Below are positions 445-59,186 of a DNA stretch of 64,000 nt, piece after piece. The stretch covers positions 1-64,000 of the forward strand of contig NZ_PDEQ01000012.1 in the NCBI RefSeq assembly GCF_002554795.1, read 5' to 3'. The DNA is from Longibacter salinarum (GTDB lineage Bacteria; Bacteroidota; Rhodothermia; Rhodothermales; Salinibacteraceae). The notes under the pieces are model-generated. The model did no database searches. It had not been told where the DNA came from and was given only the letters and a program-made list of their open reading frames with translations. The position numbers were made by a program, and so were the translations under genes. Position 1 is the first letter of the stretch; each line of letters starts with the position of its first letter.

Positions 445-493
445 GTGAACGTTGAACCCTGAACTCTGAACCCTGAACGCTGAACTTTGAACC
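445..493. repeat. Heptad repeat array, seven 7-bp units (GTTCAGG type, minus orientation)
   Basis: Seven contiguous 7-bp units follow the pattern [CTG]TGAAC[CTG]: gtgaacg, ttgaacc, ctgaact, ctgaacc, ctgaacg, ctgaact, ttgaacc. On the other strand this is GTTCAGG/GTTCAGA. The same unit family recurs at 27311-27359, 31295-31329, 58884-58911 and 59130-59186. The array lies between the IS end and the promoter region of the M16 protease operon. Confidence 0.85.
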
Positions 494-7780: not shown

Positions 7781-7808
7781 CCACCGTCGCACGGCCGTGC
7801 GACAGTGG
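7781..7808. repeat. 28-bp palindrome, copy 1
   Basis: The left half CCACCGTCGCACGG is followed by its reverse complement with one mismatch (A at 7804). A perfect copy of the same palindrome is at 31328-31355. Both copies are intergenic and near short-period arrays. Confidence 0.8.
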
Positions 7809-8044
7809 TTGCATTGAGCGCTGCAAACGCTTTGAACCTTGAGAATCTGTTAGGCCGACAGCTCGCAGCCCCCAAGTGTACGGACCTTCCGACGGTCGGT
7901 CCTCGGGACGCCTGTGCAACCAGGCCTCGTTCGTTTTGCGCACCGTGTCTATGGCACACGTGCCACAGGATCACAATCAGGCCTGCGAATAAACAGGAAC
8001 GTCCGAGCTTAGGTTTTTGAGACCCATCCGCTAAACAAGTTCTC

Positions 8045-27224: not shown

Positions 27225-27310
27225 GGCGGGACCGAACGGTGAGAGGTTGAGGCAACGAGGCATCTCTATCTCTCATAGCGAAAAACGTCGACCGAACCGG
27301 CCAGGCTACG

Positions 27311-27359
27311 GTTCAGGGTTCAGAGTTCAGGGTTCAGGGTTCAGAGTTCAGGGTTCTAA
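27311..27359. repeat. Heptad repeat array, seven units (GTTCAGG type)
   Basis: Contiguous 7-bp units are gttcagg, gttcaga, gttcagg, gttcagg, gttcaga, gttcagg, gttctaa. A second 7-bp-periodic stretch of CGTnnnA units (27360-27380, cgtgcaa, cgtctaa, cgtttta) follows at once and then degenerates. The array lies between the lipoprotein start and the clpB terminator. Confidence 0.88.
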
Positions 27360-27398
27360 CGTGCAACGTCTAACGTTTTACGTTCCAACGCCATAACG

Positions 27399-27463: not shown

Positions 27464-30145
27464 CTACATGCTGACCGCGCCGTCGCCTGCCGGTTCTGCT
27501 GTTTCGGCGGCCTCCCCGGTCCCATCCGCTCCGGTCCGGACGGCCTCGAACGTGAGGTGATTTTGTTCGGGGGCAAGATCAATCCGGACGGTGTCGCCAT
27601 CTTCAACAGAACCGCCGAGTAGCTCCTTGGAAAGCTGGTTCGAGACCTGTCGCTGCATCACGCGCTTGAGCGGGCGAGCGCCGAACGCCGGATCGAACCC
27701 GCGATCGGCAAGCCAATCTTTCGCTGCGTCGGACAACTGCAGCTGCAGGTTGTGGCTCTTCTTTGCAATGCCCGCGATGCGGTTGAACTGCAGCTCCACG
27801 ATCTCGCGAATGTGCGACCGTCCGAGCGACCGGAAGGTGACGACTTCGTCGATCCGGTTCAGGAATTCCGGACGCAGCCGCTGACGAAGCATCTTCAGCA
27901 GCTTCTCCTCGAGCTCCTGACGCTCCAGATCCGAGAGATAGCCTCCGTCGACACTGTCCATCTTCTCCGTAATCACCTCCGATCCCATGTTGGAGGTCAT
28001 GATGATGATGGTGTTGGTGAAGTCGACGGTGCGCCCCTGGTTGTCGGTCAGACGTCCATCATCGAGAACCTGCAGCAGCACGTTGAAAATCTCCGGGTGC
28101 GCCTTCTCGATTTCGTCGAGGAGCACGACGGAGTACGGCTTACGACGCACGGCTTCCGTGAGCTGCCCGCCTTCCTCGTAGCCGACGTAGCCGGGAGCCG
28201 CACCGATGAGACGGCTGGCCGTGTGCTTCTCCTGGTACTCGCTCATGTCGATGCGAACCATCGCGTCCTCATCGTTGAAGAGGAACGCTGCCAGCGTCTT
28301 CGCCAGCTCGGTCTTACCAACCCCCGTGGTACCGAGGAACAGGAACGAGCCGATCGGACGGTTTTCCTCCTGTAGCCCCGTTCGCCCACGGCGCACAGCA
28401 TCCGAGACAACCTCAATGGCTTCCGGCTGACCGATGACGCGCTTCGACAGCTCCTCTTCCATGCGAACGAGTTTCTGCCGCTCGCTCTCGAGCATCTTCG
28501 ACACGGGAATTCCCGTCCAGTTGGAGACGATCTCGGCGATGTCTTCGCCATCGACCTCCTCTTTCAGTAGCGCACCGTCCTGCTGCACCTCTTGCAGCTT
28601 CTCGTTTGCCTCCTCGGCCTGCTTCTCAAGGTCGGGAATCTCGCCGTAGCGAATTTCGGCCACGCGATCGTATTTTCCCTCGCGTTCCAGATTCTCCGCC
28701 TCGACGCGCAGCTCGTCGATCTTCTCCTTCGCCTGGCGGGCGGTTTGAATCAGATCCTTTTCCTCTTTCCAGCGGGTCTTCAGCGCATCCCGCTCGTCCT
28801 CCAGGCTCGCGATCTGGTGGTTAATGTTCTCCAGCTTCTCCTCGTCCTCGTCCCGCTTGATCGCTTCGCGTTCGATCTCAAGCTGGCGAATCTCACGGTC
28901 GAGCTGGTCGAGGTCGGCCGGCATGGAGTCGATTTCAATGCGCAGGCGCGCGGCCGCCTCATCGATCAGGTCGATCGCCTTATCGGGGAGCTGGCGATCC
29001 GTGATGTAGCGGTTCGACAAATCGGCCGCGCTGATGATGGCGCTGTCCTGAATGCGCACGCCGTGGTGCACCTCGTAGCGCTCCTTCAGGCCGCGTAGGA
29101 TCGAGATGGTGTCGTCGACCGACGGTTCGTCCACGACAACCTTCTGGAAGCGCCGTTCGAGTGCGCGGTCGTCCTCGATGTACTTGTACTCATCGAGCGT
29201 CGTCGCGCCGATGGCACGGAGCTCTCCACGAGCCAGCGCCGGCTTCAAAATATTTGCCGCGTCCATCGCGCCTTCAGCCGCCCCAGCACCAATCAGTGTG
29301 TGCAGCTCATCAATGAACAGAATGAGTTCGCCATCCGATTCCGAGACCTCCTTCACCACGGCCTTCAGCCGATCCTCGAATTCGCCCCGGTACTTTGCAC
29401 CCGCGACGAGAGCCCCCATATCGAGTGCCACGATGCGCTTCGACTTCATGCTTTCCGGCACGTCCCCCTGCACGATGCGCGTCGCGATGCCTTCGGCAAT
29501 CGCCGTCTTACCGACTCCGGCCTCACCAACCAGCACCGGGTTGTTCTTCGTGCGACGCGAGAGAATCTGCAGCACGCGACGAATCTCCTGGTCGCGCCCG
29601 ATCACCGGATCGATCTTCCCCCGGCGGGCGAGATCATTGAGGTCGCGAGCAAACCGGTCCAGCGCTTCGTAGCGACTTTCCGCGTGCGGGTCATCCGCAC
29701 TTTGTCCGCCCCTGACGTCTTCGAGGACATCACGCACCTTATCCTTCGACGCTCCCTGATCGCGCAGCGCCTGCCCGACCTCGCCCTTGCTTTCCACGAG
29801 GCCGATCAGCAGGTGCTCCGTTGAGACGTACTCATCATTCATCAAGTCCGCCTCCGCCCGCGCACGATCGAACACCTTCTTGAGCTCGTCGCCAAGATAT
29901 TGCCCCGAGACGCTCGCCCCGGTCACCTTCGGCAATTTGTCGAGAGCGGAATCGGTCCGCTGCCGGAGCGTGTCGACCGACGCACCGAGCCGGCGAAGAA
30001 TGGACGTCGTGATTCCTTCCGTGTCACTCAGAAAGGCCTTGAGCACGTGCGCCGGCTCCACACCCTGATGGTTGTTCGAGGCGGCAATCTCCATAGCGGA
30101 TTGCACAGCCTCCTGGGCTTTAACCGTAAACTTCTGCAGGTTCAT
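27464..30145 (-). CDS. clpB: ATP-dependent chaperone ClpB
   Basis: This is an 893-residue Hsp100 disaggregase that works with DnaK to rescue aggregated proteins. The N-terminal Clp_N double repeat (about 1-145) begins [15 protein letters not shown]. The first AAA+ module has Walker [10 protein letters not shown] and Walker [16 protein letters not shown]. The coiled-coil M domain (about 410-530, [28 protein letters not shown]...) distinguishes ClpB from ClpA/C. The second AAA+ module has [12 protein letters not shown] and [11 protein letters not shown]. The start was set at the ATG at 30145; the frame open to 30283 adds unrelated residues. The divergent upstream region carries several operator-like repeats, which fits heat-shock control. 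Confidence 0.98.
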
Positions 30146-31260: not shown

Positions 31261-31292
31261 AGCCCGCTTCCGGTCATGGAAGCGGGCTTTTT
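31261..31292 (+). terminator. Rho-independent terminator of the phasin-like gene
   Basis: AGCCCGCTTCC (31261-31271) pairs with GGAAGCGGGCT (31278-31288), followed by TTTT. It is preceded by a run of A and could also act on the opposite strand. Confidence 0.88.
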
Positions 31293-31294
31293 CT

Positions 31295-31329
31295 GTTCAA
31301 TGTTCAGGGTTCAGAGTTCAAAGTTGACC
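31295..31329. repeat. Heptad repeat array, five units (GTTCAGG type)
   Basis: Units are gttcaat, gttcagg, gttcaga, gttcaaa, gttgacc. The array lies directly after the phasin-gene terminator and directly before the 28-bp palindrome. Confidence 0.8.
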
Positions 31330-31355
31330 ACCGTCGCACGGCCGTGCGACGGTGG
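31328..31355. repeat. 28-bp palindrome, copy 2 (perfect)
   Basis: CCACCGTCGCACGG is followed by its exact reverse complement. It is the same sequence as 7781-7808 apart from one base there. It is flanked by a heptad array on the left and an octad array on the right, between convergent genes. Confidence 0.85.
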
Positions 31356-31364
31356 TTTCCTACT

Positions 31365-31428
31365 TTGACACGTCCACATTTTCAAACGTTCACACTTCCA
31401 CACTTTCACACTTCCACACCTCCTCACC
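31365..31428. repeat. Octad repeat array, eight 8-bp units (TTCACACT type)
   Basis: Consecutive units are ttgacacg, tccacatt, ttcaaacg, ttcacact, tccacact, ttcacact, tccacacc, tcctcacc. The array ends at the stop codon of the ABC exporter gene on the other strand. Confidence 0.82.
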
Positions 31429-33315
31429 TCACTGCCTTTCTCGGAGGGACTCGACGGCGTCTTCGCGGCTGCCGTTGCGGAACTGGAGCGCTGCTAAGTC
31501 ACGATACAGGCCGTCCTGGGCGAATAGCTCTTCGTGCGTTCCTCGTTGCACGATGCGTCCGTGATCGAAAACCAAAATTCGGTCGGCGTCCTGAACGGTG
31601 GAGAGACGGTGGGCAATGATAAGGGTTGTTCGCCCCTCCATCAGCCGATCCAGCGCCTCCTGAACGAGTGCCTCTGACGCGGAGTCGAGGGACGAGGTAG
31701 CTTCGTCCAGCAGAAGGATCCGAGCGTCGCGGAGAAGTGCCCGTGCAATCGCGATGCGCTGGCGTTGCCCGCCAGAGAGTTTCACGCCACGCTCCCCAAC
31801 CTCCGCCTCGTATCCGTCGGGCAGCGACGCGATGAACTCGTGCGCATTCGCCGCTCGAGCCGCATCTCGAACCTCCTCGTCCGTTGCCTCAAGCCGGCCA
31901 TAGCGAATGTTTTCGGCGATTGTCGAGTTGAACAACTGCACATCCTGCGAGACCGACGCCACCTGCGAACGCACCGACTGAATCGTCACGTCGCGGAGGT
32001 CTTGCCCGTCGATCATCACGCGCCCCTCCTGCGGATCGTAAAACCGCGGAATGAGACTCATCGCCGTCGACTTCCCCGCCCCGCTCGGCCCGACGAACGC
32101 TACGGTTTCGCCCGCGGCCACCTCCATGTTGATGTCCCGTAGCACGGGCTCCTCCTCGTAGGCGAACGTGACGTGGTCGAACGTGATGTCGCCGCGAAGG
32201 TCCGTCAGAGGTACGGCATCCGACGCGTCCTGAATCTCCGGCTCCGTGTCCAGCAGTTCGAACAGGCGCTCCGTTGCCCCGGCCGCCGAGTTGAATGTGG
32301 AGTAGAGCCGTGACATCCCGCCAACGCTCCTGGCAATATTGAATGCATAGAAGATGAACGCGACCAGATCGCCCGTCGTGAGTCGACCGGCGAGCACCTC
32401 CGTTCCGCCGTACCAGAAAATGGCCGTAAGCGCCGAGAAAAACAGGAGTCCGACCACAGAGGAGAAAGTCGCAGACACCAGGACGCGCACACGCGACTCC
32501 TCGAACAGGTCGTCCACAGCACGATTGTACCGGTCGACCTCGTAGCCTGACCGGGCGAACGACTTGACGAGACGAACGGACGATAGCGCCTCCTCCGCGA
32601 TGGCCGTCGTGTCCGCGAGCCGGTCCTGGATGTTGCGCGCGAGCGACCGAATCTTTCGACCAAAGTAGATCGCTGCGATCGTCACCACGGGAACGATGAC
32701 GAAAATGATGACGCTCAGACGCCAGTTGAGCACGACCATCAGGACGACCGACCCGATGAGCGACAGTGACTGCGTCAGCAGGTCCGCGAGCGCCTGCGTC
32801 ACGGCGCTCCGCACGGAGCCGACGTCGTTCGTGAGGCGGGACGTCAGGTCGCCGGTACGGTGGTCGCTGAAGAAGCGGAGCGTGAGCCGATGGAGATGCC
32901 GGTAGATGCGCTGCCTCAGATCGGCAACGACGCGCTCGCCGGTCCACTCCAGCAAATAGTTACCGCTGAAGGAGACGACGGCCTGGATCAGAAAGAGAAC
33001 GACCAGTCCTAGCGTGAGGCGATCGAGCATCGCCCGGTTCGCATCCTCGAAGACTGCATTCAGCAGTTCGCGGAGCCCGAGCGGAACGACGAGAGCGACC
33101 AGAGATCCCGCCGAGAGCAGGATCAGTGCGCCGAAGAGGCGGCCCCAGTATGGCCGGCTGAGCAGAAATATCCGCCGGAGGGCCGTCCACAGTTTCTTCG
33201 GTGAACGACGCGATTCGGCCCCCCCATCCGGGGAGGAGCTTTCTTCAGCCGACGCTTTCAACGGCTGTTCTTCTGTATCCGTCGCTTCGTGTTTGGACGA
33301 GCGGTCGCGGGCCAT
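31429..33315 (-). CDS. MsbA-type ABC exporter, fused permease and ATPase
   Basis: This is a 628-residue ABC half-transporter. After a charged N-terminus (about 40 residues) come six transmembrane helices (about 50-360). The nucleotide-binding domain follows, with Walker A GPSGAGKST (about 416-424), signature [16 protein letters not shown], Walker B ILLLDEATSSLD and the switch His in IIAHRLSTV. Such homodimers flip lipids (MsbA) or export hydrophobic compounds, and the substrate is not readable here. The gene lies 191 bases downstream of the TolC-adaptor-ATPase genes in the same direction. It may be part of the same transcript, but no partner relationship is proven. Confidence 0.92.
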   Translation of the reverse strand: MARDRSSKHEATDTEEQPLKASAEESSSPDGGAESRRSPKKLWTALRRIFLLSRPYWGRLFGALILLSAGSLVALVVPLGLRELLNAVFEDANRAMLDRLTLGLVVLFLIQAVVSFSGNYLLEWTGERVVADLRQRIYRHLHRLTLRFFSDHRTGDLTSRLTNDVGSVRSAVTQALADLLTQSLSLIGSVVLMVVLNWRLSVIIFVIVPVVTIAAIYFGRKIRSLARNIQDRLADTTAIAEEALSSVRLVKSFARSGYEVDRYNRAVDDLFEESRVRVLVSATFSSVVGLLFFSALTAIFWYGGTEVLAGRLTTGDLVAFIFYAFNIARSVGGMSRLYSTFNSAAGATERLFELLDTEPEIQDASDAVPLTDLRGDITFDHVTFAYEEEPVLRDINMEVAAGETVAFVGPSGAGKSTAMSLIPRFYDPQEGRVMIDGQDLRDVTIQSVRSQVASVSQDVQLFNSTIAENIRYGRLEATDEEVRDAARAANAHEFIASLPDGYEAEVGERGVKLSGGQRQRIAIARALLRDARILLLDEATSSLDSASEALVQEALDRLMEGRTTLIIAHRLSTVQDADRILVFDHGRIVQRGTHEELFAQDGLYRDLAALQFRNGSREDAVESLRERQ

Positions 33316-55913: not shown

Positions 55914-56230
55914 TTATTGTGTATGGTCGATCGGGGGTTGTGGATTGGATTCAACCCGGAGCGTCGAGCAAGACCCAAACGGTGTCTCGTGATTTCATTG
56001 GAGGGAGTGTGGCTCTGCGCAGTGCACCGACACGCTCAGGGCCATTCCTCGACCTCGGTGCGTTGATAGCGGCATGGATGAATGCCGCTTCACCTCGACG
56101 TAGATACGAGGCATCCTCAAACGCCGATCAACTCCCGGGTATTACGTGGCAGCCCAACAAACCAACACGCCAGGAAAATGCCGGCACGTACCCTCCTACC
56201 TCCTCCCGACCGAAATCAATCCAATCCACT

Positions 56231-56265
56231 ATTCCCCAACCCACAATCCACAATCCCTAATCAAA
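56231..56265. repeat. Heptad repeat array (AATCCAC type, five units)
   Basis: Consecutive 7-bp units are attcccc, aacccac, aatccac, aatccct, aatcaaa, preceded by looser AATCC units. They are related to the last units of the array at 58048-58098. The array is intergenic, downstream of the IPT/kelch gene. Confidence 0.7.
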
Positions 56266-58883: not shown

Positions 58884-58911
58884 GTTCAGAGTTCAGGGTT
58901 CAGGGTTCAAC
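58884..58911. repeat. Heptad repeat array, left part interrupted by the MITE-like element
   Basis: Units are gttcaga, gttcagg, gttcagg, gttcaac. The array continues in the same phase (one-base slip) at 59130, on the other side of the 208-bp inserted element. Confidence 0.8.
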
Positions 58912-58916
58912 GTTAG

Positions 58917-59124
58917 CTACCGGACACTTTCACTGGTACCCACGTCACTTCCACATTCCCCGGCGCGGCTGCTCCGACATGGACGGGTGTATGTGGGTAT
59001 GGGAGTGTGAGAGTGCGTCATTTCTCGACGATAACGCCTCGTTTCCGAGACGTGTGGGGCTGACGCGGTCCGTTTCTCGAAGTCGCACGGAACCATTCCG
59101 TGGTGGAACCAAACTGTCCGGTAC
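58917..59124. mobile_element. 208-bp MITE-like element with IS4-type terminal inverted repeats
   Basis: The left end reads CTACCGGACACTTT and the right end, read in reverse complement, GTACCGGACAGTTT, so 12 of 14 bases match. The end of the IS at 424-438 reads CTACCGGACAGTTTT. The flanks are TTAG (58913-58916) and CTAG (59125-59128), an imperfect 4-bp duplication. It encodes nothing: a short palindrome ACGGAA-CCA-TTCCGT (59087-59101) and an 8-bp-periodic stretch (58983-59014) fill it. Without the element the flanking heptads join. It is therefore a likely non-autonomous element moved by the IS transposase. Confidence 0.72.
58983..59014. repeat. Octad-periodic stretch inside the MITE-like element
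   Basis: Units gggtgtat, gtgggtat, gggagtgt, gagagtgc keep an 8-bp spacing of GTG/GGG. The reverse complement resembles the TTCACACT octads at 31365-31428. Confidence 0.5.
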
Positions 59125-59129
59125 CTAGG

Positions 59130-59186
59130 GTTCAACGTTCGGGTTCAGAGTTCAGAACATTGAACCCTGAACCCTGAACGTTGAAC
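59130..59186. repeat. Inverted pair of GTTCAGG heptad arrays
   Basis: The left arm (59130-59155) has plus-orientation heptads (gttcaac, gttcggg, then ttcagag-type units). The right arm (59161-59186) carries ttgaacc/ctgaacc units in the opposite orientation. Together they form a near-perfect 25-bp hairpin with a 5-base spacer. The right arm ends on the fabI stop codon. Confidence 0.75.

Follow-up and report, generated by a model that had tools for sequence, protein, structure and literature searches.

Tandem heptamer arrays in the 64-kb window

The window, by which we mean the whole stretch of DNA analyzed here, spans positions 1 to 64,000 of contig C12 in the Longibacter salinarum genome (4.41 Mb, 22 contigs). 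The index array, with six exact cores of the unit GTTCANN, lies between clpC, a minus-strand gene with its 3' end at position 27464, and the next minus-strand gene. Further arrays of this unit, arrays of a second, third, and fourth family of 7- to 8-bp repeats, and a MITE-like element are located in the same window:

446-493, minus strand: GTTCANN array with seven exact cores, reading TGAAC on the plus strand
7786-7810 and 31330-31360: palindrome ACCGTCGCACGGCCGTGCGACGGT, also present at C2 724964-725203 and C4 313396-313872
8043-8082, plus strand: AACG-type 8-bp array (third family)
27310-27356, plus strand: index GTTCANN array
27355-27391, plus strand: degenerate AACGT-type 7- to 8-bp text, immediately after the index array
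31262-31294: intrinsic-terminator-like hairpin and T-tract, preceding the array at 31295
31295-31325, plus strand: GTTCANN array with four exact cores, starting right behind the hairpin and T-tract
31368-31427, plus strand: CANACNTY 8-bp array (second family), abutting the 3' end of an ABC transporter gene at 31429
56222-56256, plus strand: AATCCNN 7-bp array (fourth family)
58884-58911, plus strand: GTTCANN array with four exact cores, the left half of an array split by the MITE-like element
58914-59127: MITE-like element of 214 bp, with inverted ends TAGCTACCGGACA / TGTCCGGTACCTA and direct GGGTTCAACGT on the flanks
59128-59155, plus strand: right half of the split GTTCANN array, degenerate
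59161-59186, minus strand: inverted GTTCANN array with four exact cores, starting within the TAG stop codon of a minus-strand SDR gene

All five places reported in the initial annotation carry GTTCA-type text, with coordinates right to within a few bases. They are not all separate, since the arrays at 58884 and 59130 are a single array interrupted by the MITE-like element, and positions 59161-59186 hold its inverted partner. The sister species has a similar degenerate stretch at the place of the AACGT-type text. An Rfam search of the window returned tRNA and no other match. The palindrome ACCGTCGCACGGCCGTGCGACGGT recurs between arrays of two families and may be a REP-like or terminator element.

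Abundance and distribution of the arrays

Pattern searches of the whole genome identified 101 forward and 85 reverse matches to three consecutive GTTCARR units and 122 and 110 matches to four GTTCANN units, while a reversed control pattern gave none. Intergenic DNA (360 kb, from 2.06 Mb of the genome) contained 181 three-unit GTTCANN windows, against zero in each of 20 runs of Markov-1 simulated intergenic DNA. The genome therefore holds many further arrays, at a frequency above that of chance text, and neither of the two refuting conditions named in the initial annotation applies. All five places had been described as intergenic, and 52 of 55 arrays lie between two called genes, with one inside a called gene and two at edges. 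The spread over the genome is uneven: 54 arrays were found in the 1.64 Mb sampled outside contig C1 and only one on the whole of this 878-kb contig, where about 29 would be expected (P about 1e-11) and where the intergenic fraction is similar. Contig C1 is also poor in MITE copies; another replicon, an origin region, or a recent acquisition are candidate causes. An assembly artifact or contamination is unlikely because a second, independent genome of the genus has the arrays too and contamination stands at 0.9%.

The GTTCANN arrays represent a real bloom that is patchy in distribution. The sister species of the genus gave 28 + 39 GTTCA-array matches, whereas 39 further genomes from this family and order gave none. 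A survey of 394 genomes of the phylum, using a five-unit pattern and a control pattern, found GTTCARR matches in 12 genomes and control matches in 5; sporadic heptamer arrays therefore arise for an arbitrary unit too. Heavy blooms were seen for GTTCARR only, with 62 matches in our genome and 64 to 92 in three distant genomes, against a maximum of 5 per genome for the control. A scan of named genomes recovered at least 120 stretches with arrays, and the phyla among the matches listed include Bacteroidota, Chlorobi, Proteobacteria, Desulfobacterota, Acidobacteria, Planctomycetes, Verrucomicrobia, Cyanobacteria, Omnitrophota, Chloroflexi, and others. Another genus of the same order has 17 CANACNTY 8-bp matches, some AATCC arrays, and zero GTTCA arrays, which indicates that array repertoires differ by genus. 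At two loci of a Rhodothermaceae MAG (L064 and L156), inverted GTTCA arrays stand in convergent placement, and the RNA would be expected to fold as a hairpin.

An invariant core, a free spacer, and a two-unit periodicity

Column frequencies were taken from the core-blind, unbiased array set of Tandem Repeats Finder (TRF). Positions 1 to 5 are nearly fixed (G 1.00, T 1.00, T 1.00, C 0.99, A 0.99), and the commonest base reaches 0.72 and 0.57 at the free positions 6 and 7. Mismatches in interior cores amount to at most 1.4% per position, and GG makes up only 39% of the free dinucleotides. The strict 7-bp period described previously is confirmed; the degeneracy ascribed to the units is real at positions 6 and 7 and does not extend to the first five.

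The order of the free dinucleotides is not random. Adjacent units are identical in 36 of 208 cases, against 60.1 in within-array shuffles (z -4.8), and units two apart in 77 of 151, against 45.8 (z 6.5). In the sister species, too, identical units are scarce at lag 1 and overrepresented at lag 2 (a 14-bp superperiod), and alternation is also found in the 8-bp CANACNTY and 7-bp GCNYTYC families; GTTCARR arrays of other phyla, a set chosen for length, are more uniform and without the lag-1 deficit. Among arrays of at least three cores, four cores are commonest (21/55 in our genome and 15/25 in the sister species) and three are rare (4 and 0, respectively), and even core numbers outnumber odd ones 53:27. 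The alternation and the even-number excess fit the duplication of a two-unit, 14-bp block. Hairpins from inverted array pairs were rejected as a general explanation, as the 2.06 Mb contain a single such pair within 120 nt.

GTTCANN is one of about six 7- to 8-bp families in the genome. AATCCCC, a minor family here, is the complement of the Nostoc unit GGGGATT. The reversed-pattern control for the CANACNTY family is not clean because the reversed pattern matches too.

Polarity of the arrays toward gene edges

The arrays exhibit a gene-edge polarity that is common to several unit families. Forty-four of the 52 intergenic arrays with two flanking genes are nearer the gene that lies 5' of them on the GTTCA strand (44:8, P 4e-7), with a median distance of 54 nt to that gene and 205.5 nt to the other. 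Where the 5' neighbor ends in a stop codon, the array starts within 20 nt of the stop in 21 of 29 cases; where the 3' neighbor does, this occurs in 0 of 32 (P 4e-10), and all arrays that start this close to a stop codon are GTTCA-sense. Some arrays start directly behind the T-tract of an intrinsic terminator and not at a stop codon. The polarity persists when arrays near a MITE are set aside (35:7) and is also found in the sister species (23:1) and in the five other 7- to 8-bp families of our genome (43:6). The arrays were correctly described as occurring in both orientations, but this is not the full account, as a strict rule holds relative to the nearest gene. Gene calls came from a home-made hexamer model in our genome and from the longest ORF in other phyla, so start-side distances are less safe than stop-side ones. 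The ratio of 74:25 for arrays from other phyla includes a start side that is weak evidence only, because TGA triplets in the C-rich strand delimit ORFs, making distances look shorter, and because open ORFs can swallow GTTCA-sense arrays (24 cases); the stop side alone gives 25/49 versus 8/48 within 20 nt (P 5e-4).

Such a polarity might reflect transcription insulation, with the arrays acting as rut-like sites where Rho would terminate antisense transcripts at 3' ends and block read-in ahead of promoters, because the C-rich, G-poor strand (TGAACCC, CACACTTC, AATCCCC) corresponds to the RNA of polymerases entering the gene from outside. The C-rich strand points into the nearest gene in six unit families, every family has more C than G on that strand, and Rho is encoded in the genome. 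A Rho terminator of the gene's own transcript, however, would be C-rich in sense right after the stop, the placement for which the above count is 0/32. The usual rut spacing is longer than the 7- to 8-nt period, which also counts against insulation, and cyanobacteria are not known to have Rho. The same polarity has been published for Nostoc, a cyanobacterium (PMC4692102), which argues against a purely Rho-based account, and we consider insulation rather improbable.

Transcription-coupled expansion, in which untranslated G-rich RNA would form R-loops just past the stop codon and slippage would expand repeats there, accounts for arrays directly after stops with the G-rich strand in sense. Arrays that lie past terminators or ahead of starts nonetheless have the same polarity, although little outward transcription is to be expected there, so that this explanation appears very unlikely.

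Changes of the arrays between the two species

The arrays differ in place between the two species. We compared 117 conserved adjacent gene pairs, with a median protein identity of about 85% in the first set. Arrays of at least three cores were found in both species at 7 pairs, in the sister species only at 4, and in our genome only at 3, counts that are not unbiased because most sister-species loci were picked for carrying arrays. What changes in shared arrays is the number of units and the free dinucleotides, while place and orientation are kept. In one region of about 88% identity, the array of our genome is longer and contains a repeated GG-GT unit pair, and both flanks are alignable. At the index locus behind clpC, the sister species has conserved flanks and only about two decayed units; the ClpC proteins are 94% identical, and ClpC of our genome shares 72% identity with a Rhodothermaceae MAG. 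The initial annotation had favored slow turnover or selection on spacing over slippage. In that form the view is not supported: orthologous arrays vary in unit number and dinucleotides, and some are present in one species only; the 14-bp alternation points to block duplication; and the constraint falls on five of the seven positions and on array location, and not just on spacing.

A constraint of this kind could come from a DNA- or RNA-binding protein that recognizes each GTTCA core at the 7-bp step, three units spanning 21 bp or two turns of the helix, and that labels 3' untranslated regions or gene ends, with selection keeping the core. The contrast between 99 to 100% at the core and 57 to 72% at the free positions in the unbiased TRF arrays favors such a protein, as do the sense placement just after stop codons and the array position kept across species. 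Five other unit families of the same genome behave alike, however, and the arrays are absent from the family's other genera and nearly absent from the 878-kb contig, so no single core looks essential. We regard protein binding as unlikely.

Relationship to described heptamer repeats

Cyanobacterial STRR sequences are, as general background, intergenic heptanucleotide tandem repeats with several units per genome, and GTTCANN is not known to be among their unit sequences. The previously noted likeness in style, with a different unit, probably holds. A literature search for the literal units found no description, and two described systems are closer relatives than STRR, namely, the GGGNATC class (PMC4692102) and the TAACTGA repeats (PMC4679880).

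The first comprises the GGGAATC / GGGGA(C/T)T heptamers of Xanthomonas and Nostoc (Rehm et al. 2015, PMC4692102), which have five conserved and two variable positions. Xanthomonas carries about 180 such arrays per genome, intergenic and most commonly of four units, with the 5' neighboring ORF at an average of 28 nt versus 160 nt, whatever the ORF orientation; the Nostoc GGGNATC-type repeats show the same polarity. Array position is mostly kept between Xanthomonas species while length varies, inverted array pairs occur like those of L064 and L156, and the authors report no regional preference and no general link to mobile elements. GTTCANN arrays share with this class the heptamer of five fixed and two free positions, the intergenic location, the proximity to the 5' neighbor, the four-unit mode, and the same gene context with variable length in related species. 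The GTTCANN unit, in contrast, differs from GGGNATC and GGGGAYT, and the two-unit alternation, the MITE targeting, and the strong depletion on one contig are features of GTTCANN only, unlike the Xanthomonas arrays.

The authors of that study link the four-unit mode to G-quadruplexes. The placement rule and the four-unit mode are common to both repeats and would favor the same function here, but the motif of four uninterrupted G tracts is present in only 2 of 80 GTTCANN arrays. G-quadruplexes are thus hardly the general reason; we rejected them in that role and give this explanation next to no credence.

The TAACTGA direct repeats of Beggiatoaceae, Cyanobacteria, and Bacteroidetes (MacGregor 2015, PMC4679880) show indels in 7-nt steps between close strains and, in BOGUAY, are forward, nearly pure, and located just upstream of start codons. 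Both TAACTGA and GTTCANN are intergenic heptamers, patchy over distant phyla, with lineage-specific histories and no evident transfer mechanism. GTTCANN differs in unit sequence, in its two free positions, and in abutting stops.

Earlier work treated the heptamer arrays of Xanthomonas, Nostoc, and Beggiatoa as separate cases and explained each differently. GTTCANN is unrelated to those units and hardly capable of forming G-quadruplexes, yet it follows the same two unusual rules, the polarity toward gene edges and the four-unit mode. Together with the polarity common to five other families and to other phyla, this argues for one shared cause, which would lie in how arrays arise and not in their sequence or in G-quadruplexes. 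An old puzzle is now testable in cultivable bacteria.

Proposed origin and remodeling of the arrays

We infer that the arrays belong to a class of intergenic 7- to 8-bp tandem repeats that recurs among bacteria and has bloomed in this genus. Replication slippage, mostly by two units (14 bp) at a time, would remodel them where they stand, with functional DNA as the boundary, and we give this account an even chance of being correct. Arrays would persist only in DNA without other constraint, up to stop codons, terminators, or promoter regions. The fixed polarity, in which the G-rich strand has its 5' end at the edge of the gene, would most likely result from directional slippage or deletion during copying of the G-rich strand, halted at the functional element by purifying selection. 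The GTTCA core would most simply be the pairing or recognition unit for slippage, leaving the two bases between cores free, and the observations would require no function at the level of the cell.

The support for slippage is indirect. The account as a whole draws on the changes in unit number and dinucleotides at orthologous arrays that keep their position, on arrays present in one species only, on the lag-1 deficit and lag-2 excess in both species and the alternation in two other families, on the four-core mode and the even-number excess, and on the like behavior, with the same polarity, of several unrelated unit families in one genome. In addition, array 5' edges abut stop codons or terminator T-tracts, the distribution is patchy across the genome and across genera, and the published GGGNATC repeats obey the same rules. 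Against this account stands the near-absolute core beside a free spacer, which uniform mutation and slippage would not yield and which points to some contribution of either selection or a sequence-specific agent; the polarity toward genes could also have a functional basis. One such agent would be a polymerase, recombinase, or binding protein that has the GTTCA core as its recognition site and, starting at gene edges, builds or maintains arrays in the outward direction, with the same kind of machinery behind heptamer arrays of differing units in many phyla, a proposal that we find quite doubtful.

A MITE family inserted in the arrays

A MITE-like family of about 214 bp, with inverted ends (TIR) TAGCTACCGGACA and direct flanking repeats of about 9 to 10 bp, targets GTTCA arrays preferentially. 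The window copy has an 11-bp direct repeat on each side, part of which is possibly the array itself, and further copies include C2 8520-8733, 34308-34521, and 667819-668032. Of the 46 intergenic MITE ends in 2.06 Mb, 20 coincide with a GTTCA core, where 2.9% would be expected (P 5e-19). At three orthologous loci (L264, L270, and L276), the sister species has the array without the MITE; the arrays are therefore older and serve the element as preferred landing sites. An origin of the arrays as products of MITE insertion was rejected on the same three loci and because fewer than half of the MITE ends fall within arrays. A different interspersed element, whose ends resemble AACCTGTTTGGCGGA, adjoins AACG-type 8-bp arrays (window 7820-8040 and C4 155709-156329) and is possibly a second MITE family with a second array family as its target.
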